Below, in pieces: positions 9,614 to 15,847 of a DNA stretch of 64,000 bases. Origin of the DNA: Syntrophotalea carbinolica DSM 2380 (GTDB lineage Bacteria > Desulfobacterota > Desulfuromonadia > Desulfuromonadales > Syntrophotaleaceae). Positions within the stretch are counted from its first letter, which is position 1. Each line of letters opens with the position of its first letter. Below the pieces are notes generated by a model that saw only the letters and a program-made list of their open reading frames with translations, had not been told where the DNA came from and did no database searches. The DNA lies in assembly GCF_000012885.1 (NCBI RefSeq), contig NC_007498.2, positions 744,001-808,000 on the forward strand, in the 5' to 3' direction. The position numbers and the translations under genes were made by a program.

Positions 9614-10483
9614 CTAATCGTGTCCGGTCAGGCGATAGTAGGCGTGAGGGCGCAGCTTTTTAACGATTCTGCCGGTCAACGGGGCGAACCATATGCGTGC
9701 CGGTACGTGTACGACCGACAGCCCCAACTCTTCCTTGTAGCGGCATAATCCCGGCGCCTCCCTGGCGTGCAGGCCGTGAACGATTTCGCGAATCGATCCG
9801 GCCCGGCGGCAGATCTGCACCCATTCGAAAAACAGGCCGAGGCTGATGTTGGTGCGCAGATAGGCGGAGTGCAGAAACAGGTCGTCCACGTAGGCGGTTG
9901 CGCCGACCGCGTAACTTGTTATATATCCCCCGAGTTTTCCCTCTATCAACCCTCCAATCACCAAGCCACGCCCGGCATCATAATAGCGTTCGATCTCTTT
10001 GCGGTAGGCGGATCGGCCGGGAATCCTGCCATAACCGTTGCGGGCGTGGGCCGAGGAAAGTATGTCGTAGCCCTGCTCCAGCAGCAGGTCCGGCTTGTGC
10101 AATTCGACAATGCTAACCTGCTTGCGGAGATTACGCAGTTTGTTGCGACAGCGTGCGCTTCGGGTTTGCAATGTATAGTTCTTGATATCCGCCAACAAAT
10201 GCAGCGGCATGCTGCCATTGGCCCCGTGGGCGTCGGTTTCGCCCAAAGAGGTGCGAAATCCCCAGCAAAGAGGGCTTGGACGGCTGGCTTCCGCCAGCTT
10301 CATTCTGGCCATGGGGTGGGTTGCGGAATAAAATCCGGGGTGCGTCGCCATCCAATAACGCCCATGGTGGCGGATGACTTTTGTTCCTCTTTGCATCAGC
10401 CAGGCGGCGAGTTCCTCTTCTGTCAGAATCGGCAGAGAGGTTTCTGATACATCCCGTGTATTTTGGGTGGCGATAACACTCAT
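9614..10483 (-). CDS. FemAB/GNAT-like acyl- or aminoacyl-transferase
   Basis: About 289 residues. The C-terminal half (about 150-280) resembles a GNAT/FemAB fold: GLVIGGLIEGKLGGYITSYA, then YVDDLFLHSAYLRTNISLGL, then a helix and a final strand. Proteins of this kind move acetyl or aminoacyl groups onto amines, including peptide-bridge and polysaccharide targets. ATG 10483 is preferred, with GAGG about 11 bases upstream; a longer TTG-started form to 10570 is possible. It is last in a leftward run with PEP mutase, dehydrogenase, ATP-grasp ligase and a membrane protein, so it may tailor the same product. That role is inference. Confidence 0.65.
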   Translation of the reverse strand: MSVIATQNTRDVSETSLPILTEEELAAWLMQRGTKVIRHHGRYWMATHPGFYSATHPMARMKLAEASRPSPLCWGFRTSLGETDAHGANGSMPLHLLADIKNYTLQTRSARCRNKLRNLRKQVSIVELHKPDLLLEQGYDILSSAHARNGYGRIPGRSAYRKEIERYYDAGRGLVIGGLIEGKLGGYITSYAVGATAYVDDLFLHSAYLRTNISLGLFFEWVQICRRAGSIREIVHGLHAREAPGLCRYKEELGLSVVHVPARIWFAPLTGRIVKKLRPHAYYRLTGHD

Positions 10484-10597
10484 AGGGGCGGTATCCTCAA
10501 TCCTTCCGGCTTCGAGCGAGACAGGTAAGGCCACGTTTTTTCGAATGCGGTGCACAAGGTACAAAAACAACGAATGCCTTGTGGTTTTTTTGCTGCC

Positions 10598-11242
10598 TCA
10601 GCCATCGGGCCGAAACATCATGTATAGAGATTTCTCGCCGAAATAGCCCAGCCAGCTGGCAAGTCCGAAAAGTTTAAAGCCATCCTCAAACAGGTGATAG
10701 TCGAGTACGAGAGTCTCCATTTTCGTGGCCATACAGTCCACCGCGACCGACAGAAAGAAAAACCCGAGGGCCAACGCCAGCAGCAGGAAATTGTTTTTGA
10801 AGATGATGTGCCGGAATGCTGTCAGGTACACAAGGACGATGGACACGTAACTCAGGTAGATATAGCGCTGTCGCCAGTGCAGATATTCCGGGAAAATCCT
10901 TTCATGCAGCAGGAATAGATCGTCCAACATGAGCATGCTGGTGAGCAGGCCGGAGAACAGGAAAAAGATGGCGGCGCTGTTTGCCCCGGTTTTCCGCAAG
11001 ACAAAAAAGGAAAAGAAGCAAATGGCGGCCGATGCACACCACAGCAGGATGCAGATGTTCGACACGACCCCTAAAAACGGCGATGTATGGGTAATGTCGG
11101 CCGGATCCCTGGTAAACATGGCCAGAGGAATATCCATATGTACGCTTGCCAGCAGAACAGTCAGCAGTAGTACGCCCGCCGGTAGATACAGACAGAGCAA
11201 TAATTTATAGGATATGCAGCGGTTAAGCGAGAAGAAGGTCAT
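10598..11242 (-). CDS. Polytopic membrane protein of unknown function
   Basis: 214 residues with about six hydrophobic helices (near 12-32, 58-80, 87-105, 125-142, 147-165 and 180-200). Charged residues sit within or beside helices: DDLFLLHER near 105-113, AVDCMATKMET near 166 and FEDGFKLFGLASW near 183. Such buried Asp/His/Glu patterns are seen in membrane hydrolases and metal sites, but no family was recognised. It lies 69 bases after PEP mutase and before the FemAB-like gene, all in one direction, so a role in export of, or lipid attachment of, the cluster product is possible. Confidence 0.7.
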   Translation of the reverse strand: MTFFSLNRCISYKLLLCLYLPAGVLLLTVLLASVHMDIPLAMFTRDPADITHTSPFLGVVSNICILLWCASAAICFFSFFVLRKTGANSAAIFFLFSGLLTSMLMLDDLFLLHERIFPEYLHWRQRYIYLSYVSIVLVYLTAFRHIIFKNNFLLLALALGFFFLSVAVDCMATKMETLVLDYHLFEDGFKLFGLASWLGYFGEKSLYMMFRPDG

Positions 11243-11311
11243 GACAGTCGTCGCTTTGCTAGAGGGTTTCGGTGGCCGATGGCCAACCGGTTGGTGCCGG
11301 GGTAGCGCTTT

Positions 11312-12214
11312 TTATCCGCCGGAGGGATCGGGGGTGCGGGTCGGTGGCAGATAACGTTCCTCGGCCTTTTTCAGTTCGTCGGTGTTTTGTAAACGGAAGA
11401 CTTCCTTTACCGGGGTGATCTCTTTTTCGACCCCGAGCAGCGACTGTTGTTCATGAATTATGGCCGCGGTTTTCTGCATGGCGGCTACGCTCGAGCGCAG
11501 CAGCTGGTTGGCCCAGATCACCAGACTGATACCGGCCTCTTGAAATACCGAGGTCGGTGTCGTGTAATACTTGGTCGGGACCACAACGATGGGACAGGTA
11601 TCCTGCCATTCGTTCATGAAGGCCAGGATCTCTTCCGCCGTCGACAGTTTGCTGTGGATCAACAAGGCATCCGCCCCCGCTTTATGGTAGGCTTCGGCGC
11701 GTTTGAGCGCTTCGCCCAGCCCCCATTTGGCAATGAAGGCTTCGATTCTTGCGATGACGCAAAAATCCTCATCCTGCTGGGTGTCTTTGGCTGCCTTGAT
11801 TTTTCCGGCGAAAACATCGATAGCTTCCAATGGCTGACGGGCGTCGTCCAGCAACGAGTTGTTTTTCGGAAACAGCTTGTCCTCGATGCAGACGGCGCCG
11901 ACCCCTCGCTGTTCCAGTTTACGCACCAACCTGCGCACATTGTTGAAATTGCCATAGCCGGTGTCGGCATCCAGCATGATCGGGATGCTGGATGCATCGC
12001 TCATGAACTCGACAACGTCCAGTACCTGGGTCCAGCTGGCTTCGTTGTTGTCCCGCACCCCTAGGGCAGCCGATATGGCCAGTCCGCTGCCCCAGATGCC
12101 TTTGAAACCAGCCTCTTCGACGATCTTGGCGCTTAAGCCGTTATGGGCTTCCATGAGGAATTGAACATCCGGCGAATGCAACAGAGATTTGAACTGGGAC
12201 GTTTTTTTCTGCAT
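11312..12214 (-). CDS. pepM: Phosphoenolpyruvate mutase (phosphonate biosynthesis)
   Basis: 300 residues of the isocitrate-lyase/PEP-mutase fold. The diagnostic PEP-mutase motif EDKxxxKxNS is present as [10 protein letters not shown] at residues 111-120, after [10 protein letters not shown] (80-89), which binds Mg and phosphate. The enzyme converts PEP to phosphonopyruvate, forming the C-P bond that begins nearly all phosphonate pathways; equilibrium strongly favours PEP, so a coupled second step is needed. The ATG at 12214 has an ideal AAGGAGG six bases upstream (12221-12227); a GTG at 12241 overlapping the preceding stop is less likely. It follows the dehydrogenase gene directly. Confidence 0.92.
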
Positions 12215-12237
12215 GACAACCCTCCTTGGGGGACGGT

Positions 12238-13203
12238 TCACAGGGGGTGACCGGTTCCCGGTGCGCTGCCTCCGGGTGTTTGTTCTGCCGGGTCGAAATC
12301 GTCCATGATGTCGATGATTCTGCGGCCGATTTCACGCTGGGAATCGATGGTCATGGCGCCGATATGGGGCGTCAGAACAACATTCGGTAGATCGGCCAGG
12401 GGCGAAATCTGGTTTTCCCCTTCGGTTTGGTGCACGTCGAGGGCGGCACCGGCCAACCGGCCCTGGCGAAGTGCTTCGCTCAGGGCGGCCTCGTCGATGA
12501 TGCCGCCTCTGGCCATATTCAGAACAAAACTTCCGGGTTTTACCATGGCCAGTTCGTCGTGGCCGATAAGGCCGCTGGTGGTGGTTTTGAGGGGTACGCA
12601 TACGCAGAGATAATCGGCCGTCGACAGGACGGTGTTGAGGTCGGTCAGGTGGAGGCCCTTGGCTTCAAATTGAGCGGCGCGTTCTGGAGAGGGGTGTTCC
12701 ACGCAACCCAGCACCTGCATTCCCCAGGCCAGGCCCATCTGTCCGAGCAGGGTGCCGATGTTGCCCAGGCCGACGATACCCAGCTGCTTGTTGACCAGCA
12801 GGTGTCCCCTCAATTGGTGTTTGGCCCACGTTCCTTTGCGAAGCAACTGATCTGCAACGAGAATCTGACGGGATAGCGCCAGCATCATGCCGAAGGCCAG
12901 TTCTGCCACCGCCCGGGCTCCCGGCTGCGGGATTCGCACCAGTTTCAGATCGTGGTTGCGCAGATAATCCAGATCGACGTTGTCGAGGCCGGATCCGGCC
13001 CGGATAAGTAGTTGCAGGTCGGGAGCGCAGGCCATGATCCCGGCGGTGATGTTCACGCCGCTTCGGAAAATCAAGGCTTCGCGATCGCGTATCAGATTTT
13101 TCAGGGCTGCTTCCGTTTCACCGACGCCCGACACCACATCATGGCGCTGACTCAAAATCTCCAGGGCTCCGGTATCGATTTTGCTGGCCAGCAGGATCTT
13201 CAT
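12238..13203 (-). CDS. D-2-hydroxyacid dehydrogenase, candidate phosphonopyruvate reductase
   Basis: 321 residues, the length of SerA/GyaR-like NAD-dependent D-2-hydroxyacid dehydrogenases without regulatory domains. The Rossmann motif GIVGLGNIG lies near 143-151; catalytic residues are Arg in [11 protein letters not shown], Glu in DVHQTEGEN and His in LTPHIGA. Substrate is not shown by sequence. Placed between the ATP-grasp gene (ATGA overlap) and PEP mutase (23 bases), with no phosphonopyruvate decarboxylase in view, it is a good candidate to reduce phosphonopyruvate to phosphonolactate, as reported for the valinophos-type route. 3-phosphoglycerate dehydrogenase or glyoxylate reductase activity is the alternative. 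Confidence 0.85.
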
Positions 13204-14426
13204 TTTTCCTCCCCGATGGTTCGATCCGGATTTCGTTTGCCGCGTTCTTCCTTGTTGAAAAACAGGCGCGCTGCGCGCCACAGATCCCCCAGGAAGGGAT
13301 ACGGATCGGTCCAGGAAAAAATGGCGAAAGTCTTGGGTCCGCGTACCGATTTACGCCATTGGTTGAAAGTCAATTCTCCTTTGCGCCAGTAATAGAATGC
13401 CGACCTGAGATCCTGTCTGAGGTTGATCCATTTGACGCCACCGTAATGCTGAACCCGGTTGGACGGCAGGGGCCGGCCGAGGGCGTCGCAGTACATGGTG
13501 TAGAGCAACTCGACCCCACCGGCCTCGGCAATGGCCGATCTGCCGGTGGGACGGCCGATGTTCGGTTCAACGATGAAATACTCTCCTGTCCGCTGGTCGC
13601 GCTTGATCTCCAGATAGGCCAGTCCGTGAAATCCGACCGTCTGGAAAAGCCTTAGCGTCTCGGCAAGGACAACATCGTCGCGGCATTCCTCGCCCAGCGA
13701 ACTCTGCCCCATGACCGGCGGCCATTGCCGGATTTTTCTCGCCACGAAGGATGCCAGAGGTTTTGTATTGGCATCGAAATAGGCATTGCATGAATACAGG
13801 TTGGCGTCGGGACCTTCGATCCAATTTTGCAGGATGAAGCATTCCGTGGCGGCTTTGTATTGCTCGTAGGTAGCTGTCAGCTGTTCCGCCGTGACGATTC
13901 TGAACGCTTTAAAAGGCGAGAGTTCGTTCCATTTGGCGGTCCTGTAATGGGGTTTGAGAACGCAGGGGAAGACAACCTTTCGGGCGGCGCTATCCAGCTC
14001 TTGACGGTTATGAATGAACCATGTGTCGGGTACGCGAAATCCTGCTTCCCGGGCAAAAGCGTAAAACTGCAATTTGTCCATCAGCATTTCGACCACTTCC
14101 GCTGGCGGTAAACACATGTGGAACCACTGGGATAATTGGCGGCGATTTTGCGAGATGAGCAATACGTCCGCATCGGTACCGGGGAACAACACGGCTTTTT
14201 CTGCCAGCTGCCGACCTATAACGATCAGATCTTCAATCAGGTTGTTGTCGGTACAGACGACCTGGTGACAGCAGTTGGTTAAGTTATAAGGATGATTTTT
14301 GTTGGTGGATACCGCGATAACCGGTAGGTGATGACGCTTCGCAAGTATTCGGGCCGCTTGAATGCCTTGCATGTATTCAAGGCCGGTAACCACGGCGAAG
14401 GGGTTGTTGTCTGCAGTAGCATGCAT
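13200..14426 (-). CDS. ATP-grasp carboxylate-amine ligase-like protein
   Basis: 408 residues. An N-terminal Rossmann-like preATP-grasp domain (about 1-110) leads into an ATP-grasp domain (about 115-310): FPCVLKPHYRTAKW binds ATP phosphate, ECFILQNWIEGPDANLYS spans the hinge, and YFIVEPNIGRPTGRS holds the Mg-binding Glu and Asn. Such enzymes activate a carboxylate as acyl phosphate and join it to an amine. A tail of about 90 residues with many aromatic and basic residues follows. ATG 14426 has AAGGAT ten bases upstream. First gene of the leftward cluster, overlapping the dehydrogenase by four bases (ATGA). It may make a phosphono-peptide or amide bond; this is inferred from context. Confidence 0.82.
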   Translation of the reverse strand: MHATADNNPFAVVTGLEYMQGIQAARILAKRHHLPVIAVSTNKNHPYNLTNCCHQVVCTDNNLIEDLIVIGRQLAEKAVLFPGTDADVLLISQNRRQLSQWFHMCLPPAEVVEMLMDKLQFYAFAREAGFRVPDTWFIHNRQELDSAARKVVFPCVLKPHYRTAKWNELSPFKAFRIVTAEQLTATYEQYKAATECFILQNWIEGPDANLYSCNAYFDANTKPLASFVARKIRQWPPVMGQSSLGEECRDDVVLAETLRLFQTVGFHGLAYLEIKRDQRTGEYFIVEPNIGRPTGRSAIAEAGGVELLYTMYCDALGRPLPSNRVQHYGGVKWINLRQDLRSAFYYWRKGELTFNQWRKSVRGPKTFAIFSWTDPYPFLGDLWRAARLFFNKEERGKRNPDRTIGEEK

Positions 14427-14873: not shown

Positions 14874-15010
14874 CAGGATGCGGGTGTTTGAATGGATCCG
14901 CCATACAACCGGGGTAAACCTGAGATTTTGACTTGCAAATAACAGGTCGGCTGGTTACGCTACTTCAGTCTGTGCGTAAACCCCATTCCCGATGCGGTAC
15001 CCCCCGAGGT

Positions 15011-15847
15011 ATGAACTCCGGAGCGGTGGCCGTAACCGATGCCATGTCCGTACCTGAACCCCACATACTCGAACCGGCTCGTTGCGCCGACATGATTCGA
15101 CGTTCCCGCTGCGTGGTGACCCTGTCCGGTGCGGGGATCTCCACGGCGGCGGGCATCCCGGACTTTCGAGGGCCGCAGGGGCTCTATGTGACCCGACGAT
15201 ACGATCCCGAGAAGGTTTTCGATATCGACTGGTTTCATCGGGAGCCTCGGTATTTCTACGAATTCACACGGGATTTTGTGAGTACGGTCAAGGCTATCCG
15301 GCCGACCTTTACCCACCGGTTCCTGGCCGGCCTGGAAAAAGCCGGGGGGTTGGCGGGGCTCATCACTCAGAATATCGACATGCTTCACCAGTTGGCCGGC
15401 AGCCGCAAGGTCATCGACCTTCACGGTTCGTACCGTTCCGCGCAATGCCTCTTTTGTGGCAAAAGCTATGAGGCGCTTTCCTATACCTGGTGGGAACGGG
15501 CCATGTCCACCAGTTCCAAGCCTCCTCTGGCTTATTGCAGTGCCTGCAACAGTGTGCTTAAGCCCGATATTGTCTTTTTCGGTGAGATGGTACACGCTTT
15601 TGAAGCCGCCGAGCAGCTAATCGCCCAGTGCGATCTGTTGCTGGTACTGGGCTCCTCCCTTAAAGTTACTCCGGCCTCGTTACTCCCGTATCATACCCAA
15701 GCAACAACAGTCGTCGTGAATCGGGGGGCGGTGATGCTGCCTCCCGCACCTCACCGGTTTTTTGTCGATGGCGATCTCGACGTTTATTTCAGGGCGGTTG
15801 CAAAGCACCTGGATATAACGGTGCCGGGATCGACCGCATCCGATTGA
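15011..15847 (+). CDS. Sir2 family NAD-dependent protein deacylase
   Basis: About 278 residues with the full sirtuin signature: TLSGAGISTAAGIPDFRGPQGLY near 40-60 (NAD binding, here quoted in part as GAGISTAAGIPDFRGPQG), TQNIDMLHQLAG, the catalytic His in DLHGSY, two zinc-binding pairs CLFC and CSAC, and VFFGEM. Sirtuins remove acyl groups from lysines using NAD. ATG 15011 is used; ATG 15044 or a TTG at 14933 are alternatives because no start has a well-spaced ribosome site. It converges on the DUF748 gene with only seven bases between stops. Confidence 0.9.
   Translation: MNSGAVAVTDAMSVPEPHILEPARCADMIRRSRCVVTLSGAGISTAAGIPDFRGPQGLYVTRRYDPEKVFDIDWFHREPRYFYEFTRDFVSTVKAIRPTFTHRFLAGLEKAGGLAGLITQNIDMLHQLAGSRKVIDLHGSYRSAQCLFCGKSYEALSYTWWERAMSTSSKPPLAYCSACNSVLKPDIVFFGEMVHAFEAAEQLIAQCDLLLVLGSSLKVTPASLLPYHTQATTVVVNRGAVMLPPAPHRFFVDGDLDVYFRAVAKHLDITVPGSTASD

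Follow-up and report, generated by a model that had tools for sequence, protein, structure and literature searches.

A candidate phosphonolactate operon with an ATP-grasp ligase in Syntrophotalea carbinolica and a related gene module in other phyla

A cluster of five genes in the genome of Syntrophotalea carbinolica DSM 2380, located at positions 9614–14426 of the 64,000-nucleotide stretch analysed here (the window), is rather likely to be a phosphonolactate operon, whose products would convert phosphoenolpyruvate (PEP) to phosphonopyruvate and then to phosphonolactate, followed by ATP-driven coupling of the latter to an amine or a hydroxyl group. Three of these genes, encoding a PEP mutase (PEPM), a D-2-hydroxyacid dehydrogenase (DH) and an ATP-grasp ligase, recur together on the same strand in several phyla, and this DH-PEPM-ligase module is newly described here.

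The genome consists of one contig of 3,665,893 bases. As stated in the original prediction, which was made from the letters of the window alone, all five genes are read leftward, an ATGA overlap joins the ligase gene to the DH gene, and 23 bases separate the DH and PEPM genes. The features, given by open reading frame coordinates, are as follows:

13200–14426, minus strand: ATP-grasp ligase, 408 amino acids; ATP-grasp matches below cut-off, model with an ATP-grasp fold
13200–13203, minus strand: ATGA stop/start overlap from the ligase gene to the DH gene
12238–13203, minus strand: D-2-hydroxyacid dehydrogenase, probable phosphonopyruvate reductase, 321 amino acids; PF02826 and PF00389 over cut-off
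11312–12214, minus strand: PEP mutase, 300 amino acids; TIGR02320 over cut-off, best PDB match 1m1b
10598–11242, minus strand: membrane protein, family unassigned, 214 amino acids; five hydrophobic segments
9614–10483, minus strand: fifth gene, possible acyltransferase, 289 amino acids; weak or below-cut-off GNAT matches, conserved in four loci of the genus

In the proposed pathway, PEPM would convert PEP to phosphonopyruvate, and DH would reduce it with NAD(P)H to 3-phosphonolactate, thereby pulling the unfavourable mutase reaction. The ATP-grasp enzyme could then convert phosphonolactate to an acyl phosphate at its carboxylate, and coupling of this intermediate to an amine or a hydroxyl, possibly that of a surface glycan, would yield an amide or an ester. 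The membrane protein and the fifth gene could be additions in this bacterial family, perhaps serving attachment or transport of the product.

PEPM scores 408.3 bits against a curated TIGR02320 cut-off of 319.55 and carries the diagnostic motif EDKxFPKxNS, found in 83 of 86 rows of the PEPM superfamily, in the form [10 protein letters not shown] that had been pointed out in the original prediction. Its best relative in the PDB is the Mytilus PEP mutase 1m1b, with 430 bits, while phosphonopyruvate hydrolase 2dua reaches only 223 bits; these scores, together with that of TIGR02320, speak against an identity as phosphonopyruvate hydrolase or methylisocitrate lyase. The predicted formation of phosphonopyruvate from PEP by this enzyme, the sole PEP_mutase-family match in the whole genome, is thus supported. 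The cluster had been described as lacking a gene for phosphonopyruvate decarboxylase (Ppd), and this holds genome-wide at the family cut-off, the best of five matches scoring 35.2 against 312.5 bits. The five genes and a further 14 window proteins that were scanned showed no cytidylyltransferase or aminotransferase family, no genome search having been aimed at either.

DH belongs to the D-2-hydroxyacid dehydrogenase family (PF02826 and PF00389), and its best PDB matches are phosphoglycerate dehydrogenases. However, with 242–244 bits it falls below the 454-bit cut-off of the SerA family TIGR01327, which two other genes of the genome pass, and therefore it is not considered to be SerA. A gene over the same cut-off was found in 11 of 13 further genomes that carry the module. 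In a quick tree of 54 rows, 44 of them distinct, all 20 module DHs form one clade (branch support 100, stem 1.9) apart from the SerA-like rows, some other rows being long branches; ten rows labelled "serlike" are module DHs retrieved twice, and sequences shorter than 220 amino acids, including that of locus L213, were left out before the counts. The module DHs retain the arginines and catalytic residues common to SerA: R68, R232, E261 and H280 are conserved in all 20, and R47 in 19, with one gap. Two other positions differ, position 90 being R in 20 of 20 module DHs and N in 14 of 14 SerA proteins, and position 258 being H in the former and F, W or Y in the latter. The residues touching the substrate are presumed from earlier work on phosphoglycerate dehydrogenase, and on this basis the pattern would suit an enzyme acting on a phosphonate related to 3-phosphohydroxypyruvate. 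DH is probably a phosphonopyruvate reductase; an identity as SerA or glyoxylate reductase was rejected on the basis of the cut-off, the SerA genes elsewhere in the genome, the separate clade and the changed residues.

The DH-PEPM-ligase module in other genomes

When named genomes were scanned with the PEPM alignment, 453 stretches were confirmed, the best 80 of which were used for the module counts. Both DH and the ligase are encoded beside PEPM, on the same strand and no more than about 3.5 kb apart, in 16 of these 80 loci, which represent seven named phyla (Thermodesulfobacteriota, Chloroflexota, Calditrichota, Kiritimatiellota, Planctomycetota, Acidobacteriota, and Ignavibacteriota) and one unassigned bacterium. 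Two further loci hold two of the three genes, namely PEPM and the ligase in L023, with no DH on its contig, and PEPM and DH in L026, where the contig ends just past PEPM; together with the 16 full loci they make up the 18 DH- or ligase-bearing loci considered below. The gene order is DH-PEPM-ligase in 12 loci and ligase-DH-PEPM in four (L013, which is the same locus as L011 of "Pelobacter sp. UBA5610" from the same genus, and L019, L024 and L040), and therefore the linkage survives rearrangement.

Each of the three module proteins groups as one clade in quick trees, with exceptions in L207 and L183. In the tree of 86 PEPM-superfamily rows, from which L012 was omitted as the same gene as L019, 21 module PEPMs form one clade (branch support 96), and the 22nd, from L207, is a divergent PEPM-like protein below the cut-off that stands apart on a long branch. 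In the ligase tree (104 rows; sequences shorter than 300 amino acids, including that of L023, were left out before the counts), 20 PEPM/DH-linked ligases lie on one side of a branch with support 99. The part of the original prediction in which the reductase pulls the mutase and the ligase acts afterwards is backed by the DH clade apart from SerA, by its residues and by the linkage to PEPM across phyla, while the reactions themselves are predicted from context.

Two variants of the module were observed. A divergent PEP-mutase-like protein with the motif EDNLFPKRNS, scoring below the TIGR02320 cut-off, is encoded between DH and the ligase at L237:9860-10687 and may be a variant mutase or a different enzyme. 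At L014:4619-6258 DH, PEPM and the ligase are followed by a further ligase-like stretch that is truncated at the contig end.

Among close relatives, the five-gene order, which the original prediction had proposed to look for, was found in three of the five other genomes of the genus searched; the remaining two, which are 84–90% complete, gave no PEPM match. The first four genes are present in one of eight other genomes of the family. The ATGA overlap between ligase and DH genes, judged by coordinates, also occurs in these four relatives. Since the order recurs in relatives whose flanks differ, it is more than chance. The fifth gene could alternatively start at an upstream TTG, which extends it to 10570, but the relatives begin near 10483. 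A Sir2-family protein is encoded divergently from the operon at 14933-15847, with no homologue near the cluster in four related loci compared.

The ligase family and the sulfolactate parallel

All ATP-grasp profile matches of the ligase are below cut-off, so that its placement by sequence is loose, and no close characterised relative was found in the sequence and structure searches. A model built from 16 rows (mean predicted local distance difference test score, pLDDT, 91.3) has an ATP-grasp fold and aligns with 2pn1 (Z 26.4, root-mean-square deviation 3.2, 292 residues aligned) and with PylC 4ffr (Z 25.3, deviation 2.8, 293 aligned). Among the matches listed, purK, PylC, biotin carboxylase and others range from Z 22.6 to 26.4, and L-amino-acid ligases are also present (3vot, Z 24.7; 4wd3, RizA). 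With comparable scores for 2pn1, purK, PylC and an L-amino-acid ligase, the substrate cannot be read from the fold.

The ligase is thought to act on phosphonolactate mainly because some of its homologues adjoin ComA and ComB, the product of which shares the same skeleton. ComA and ComB together convert PEP and sulfite to 3-sulfolactate, the sulfonate analogue of phosphonolactate; malate, sulfolactate and phosphonolactate have one common skeleton, and the handedness of the ComA chemistry is (2R). Ligase homologues were found in 13 of 345 evenly drawn genomes of the phylum of S. carbinolica (alignment A2, E 1e-30; genus-mates lay outside the draw) and, with alignment A9 at E 1e-40, in 18 of 294 genomes of Planctomycetota, 22 of 297 of Acidobacteriota and 34 of 301 of Chloroflexota. 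The latter three phyla, also sampled evenly, were chosen as those of L024, L027 and L014, respectively; 30 of the 41 matches in Chloroflexota became loci and were examined. Altogether, 91 ligase loci were inspected with 1.5-kb flanks, five of them (L104, L158, L181, L182 and L206) duplicating genes of the window, L024, L027, L080 and L014 that were known before.

ComA and/or ComB are encoded beside the ligase homologue in seven of the 91 loci, versus none of 134 control stretches (1.66 Mb in total), in which no ComA, ComB or LarA homologue was found; the controls comprise the window and 133 loci retrieved with PEPM, DH and other queries rather than random genome. The matches reach 148.6 bits for ComA (PF02679, cut-off 25.2) and 121 bits for ComB (PF04029, cut-off 26.4). 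In the ligase tree the seven ComAB-linked ligases lie on one side of a branch with support 99, and their loci also hold genes for a glycosyltransferase, a flippase, a UDP-GlcNAc epimerase and a methyltransferase. A LarA homologue accompanies the ligase in one of the 91 loci, and a DH-like gene alone in another.

These observations led us to consider, tentatively, a broader reading in which the ligase family would be devoted to PEP-derived acidic 2-hydroxyacids, one clade using 3-phosphonolactate and another 3-sulfolactate, both capping surface glycans by amide or ester formation. Phosphonoglycans would then be linked by carboxylate activation without a cytidine monophosphate (CMP)-phosphonate in at least seven phyla, a strict anaerobe among them. 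We regard this reading as possible rather than probable.

Two arrangements near ligase homologues can be noted here. At L120:8641-11195 the homologue overlaps the start of a nickel-pincer lactate/malate racemase homologue (PF09861 over cut-off), and B12-binding radical SAM proteins adjoin ComA-ComB-ligase genes at L123:10059-11435 and L125:4957-6339, from two families of the phylum.

A number of findings weigh against the phosphonolactate operon and the proposed substrate class. None of PEPM, DH, ComA, ComB and LarA is encoded within 1.5 kb in 77 of the 91 ligase loci, so that other acids may also be substrates of the family. PEPM and DH accompany the ligase in five of the 91, four of which were known before, only L207 being new; likewise, among the 13 ligase matches in the phylum of S. 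carbinolica, both genes lie within 1.5 kb in this genome only. Membership in a clade does not always coincide with the expected neighbours: the L183 ligase falls inside the PEPM/DH clade, yet no PEPM or DH is encoded within about 8 kb, and the L114 ligase falls inside the ComAB clade, yet neither ComA nor ComB was found in 18 kb. In L123, ComA and ComB score over the Pfam cut-offs but under those of NCBIfam. The ComAB-linked ligases are 25–31% identical to the window ligase, and the ligase tree does not show their clade as the sister of the PEPM/DH clade. The 14 further window proteins scanned around the cluster include no exopolysaccharide (EPS)-synthesis gene, only an alginate-export-like protein (PF13372, 22412-23788) about 8 kb from the cluster. 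Finally, both the activity and the product are predicted from sequence and gene context.

Fate of the product and alternative readings

Twelve of the 18 loci bearing DH or the ligase (L014, L015, L017, L021–L024, L027, L040, L059, L078 and L080) have EPS- or FemAB-type genes, identified through Pfam or through clustering with a protein that Pfam names, with flanking genes scanned in part; L015 was counted only through a sugar-nucleotide epimerase and an alginate-lyase match. The gene types near the related loci include Wzz/GNVR chain-length proteins, sugar transferases, export proteins, glycosyltransferases, polysaccharide deacetylases and FemAB-type transferases. Since EPS genes often stand beside the module in other phyla, the product would more likely be a surface decoration than a free metabolite, but we only lean towards this fate because the S. 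carbinolica cluster is without an EPS-synthesis gene among its scanned neighbours.

Two families of P-loop-like proteins were also encountered at these loci. A protein of about 385 amino acids without a Pfam match, carrying the P-loop-like motif GWxK(G/S)GK(T/S), is encoded near the ligase in five of the 18 loci (L017:12602-13756, L021:11014-12177, L027:13329-14504, L078:4225-5409 and L080:6439-7551), and a similar-looking protein follows the ligase at L183:2692-3582. A cluster of P-loop proteins, one member of which is over the Pfam thymidylate-kinase cut-off, is likewise represented in five of the 18 (L017:14974-16410, L021:12187-12903, L023:4032-4856, L024:7314-8159 and L040:8059-8829).

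The last two genes of the operon were characterised less favourably for the original prediction. A simple hydropathy scan of the membrane protein gave five clear membrane segments instead of the six helices proposed; the protein, aligned from five loci, matches nothing in Pfam or NCBIfam at 0.01 or in the PDB at E 1, and one relative matches DUF5692 below cut-off (E 0.027). The product of the fifth gene, described as FemAB/GNAT-like, has no Pfam match over cut-off in the window protein, and two of its three relatives match Acetyltransf_1 below cut-off (E 0.012 and 0.033; best 16.3 versus 20.7 bits). Compared by profile with eight FemAB-type proteins from related loci, the protein shows no match (probability 1.6%), and a model from two rows has a pLDDT of 35. 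Among the 18 loci, both genes occur only in L013 and the membrane protein alone in L019; the export and tailoring roles proposed for them are so far unsupported.

Alternatively, after the same first two steps, the ligase could join phosphonolactate to a free amino acid or peptide, giving a secreted phosphonopeptide or phosphono-ester. In phosphonate pathways already known, ATP-grasp ligases form peptides and, in one case, an ester (PMC11867202, PMC12723261), and both the L-amino-acid ligases among the structural matches and the lack of an EPS-synthesis gene among the 14 proteins scanned are consistent with this. We nevertheless consider such a product unlikely in view of the EPS- or FemAB-type genes at 12 of the 18 related loci, and because known peptide pathways use two ligases, while no second member of the family was found in the genome at E 1e-30.

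It has also been proposed that the mutase of this organism disposes of excess glycolytic intermediates (PMC3543383), so PEPM and DH could be an overflow sink for surplus PEP and NADH, the ligase being unrelated to the phosphonate. The presence of the ligase with PEPM and DH in 16 loci of seven named phyla in two gene orders, and the pairing of its homologues with ComA/ComB, make this very improbable. Hardly credible is the explanation that DH is a second serine-pathway or glyoxylate enzyme lying beside PEPM by accident, which has in its favour the phosphoglycerate dehydrogenases among its best PDB matches and against it the SerA-type genes elsewhere in this and 11 of 13 other module genomes, the separate clade, the changed pocket-side residues and the linkage over seven named phyla.

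If the phosphonolactate operon and its surface role are true, phosphonolactate would be a common branch of phosphonate metabolism served by its own ligase. Anaerobic sediment bacteria would join the likely phosphonate producers, and phosphonates and sulfonates could be fixed to surface polymers in a new way. The sulfolactate parallel would provide an unassigned ATP-grasp family with a concrete substrate class.

Relation to known systems

The combination of mutase and reductase is not new as an idea, since it was guessed in 2012 and a similar enzyme is in print. The Pelobacter carbinolicus genome paper reported a PEP mutase 63% identical to the Mytilus enzyme in an operon with a phosphoglycerate-dehydrogenase-related protein, and supposed that Pcar_0629 reduces the phosphonopyruvate made by Pcar_0628 to a product named phosphonoglycerate (PMC3543383); these two proteins are very probably the DH and PEPM of the window. 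In the parts of that paper covered here, the ligase, the cross-phylum module and the sulfolactate parallel are not named. VlpB is named as the phosphonopyruvate reductase of valinophos (PMC11867202), a 2-hydroxyacid dehydrogenase is given as a known branch (PMC12871164), and phosphonate surveys are available (PMC9381506, PMC8931226). No published link of the ligase to phosphonolactate or sulfolactate was found in titles and abstract openings of the papers listed; the valinophos and branch-point inventory papers lie outside this coverage and may describe the module.

In the valinophos/2,3-dihydroxypropylphosphonic acid (DHPPA) pathway, the cluster includes a kinase and a reductase making phosphonolactaldehyde. 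The pathway of Streptomyces durhamensis resembles the one proposed here in that PEPM and a reductase of the 2-hydroxyacid dehydrogenase type lead to phosphonolactate, with ATP-grasp ligases acting later (PMC11867202, PMC12723261, PMC12871164, as far as covered here). DH may be likened to VlpB by enzyme family. The valinophos-like route of the original prediction is supported by context up to phosphonolactate; beyond it, the two differ, since neither a kinase nor an aldehyde-forming reductase was matched by any of the five window genes, to which this search was confined.

Sulfolactate synthesis by ComA/ComB, in the coenzyme M pathway and its relatives, likewise starts from PEP to give an acid, and ligase homologues adjoin its genes; unlike the proposed pathway, it forms no C-P bond and uses other enzymes, ComA and ComB being absent from the window. 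The 2-aminoethylphosphonate surface pathways of many bacteria, as far as the source was covered, also supply a phosphonate for the cell surface but rely on nucleotidyl activation (PMC6697681), whereas in S. carbinolica no decarboxylase over cut-off is present and ATP-grasp activation of the carboxylate would replace the nucleotidyl activation.

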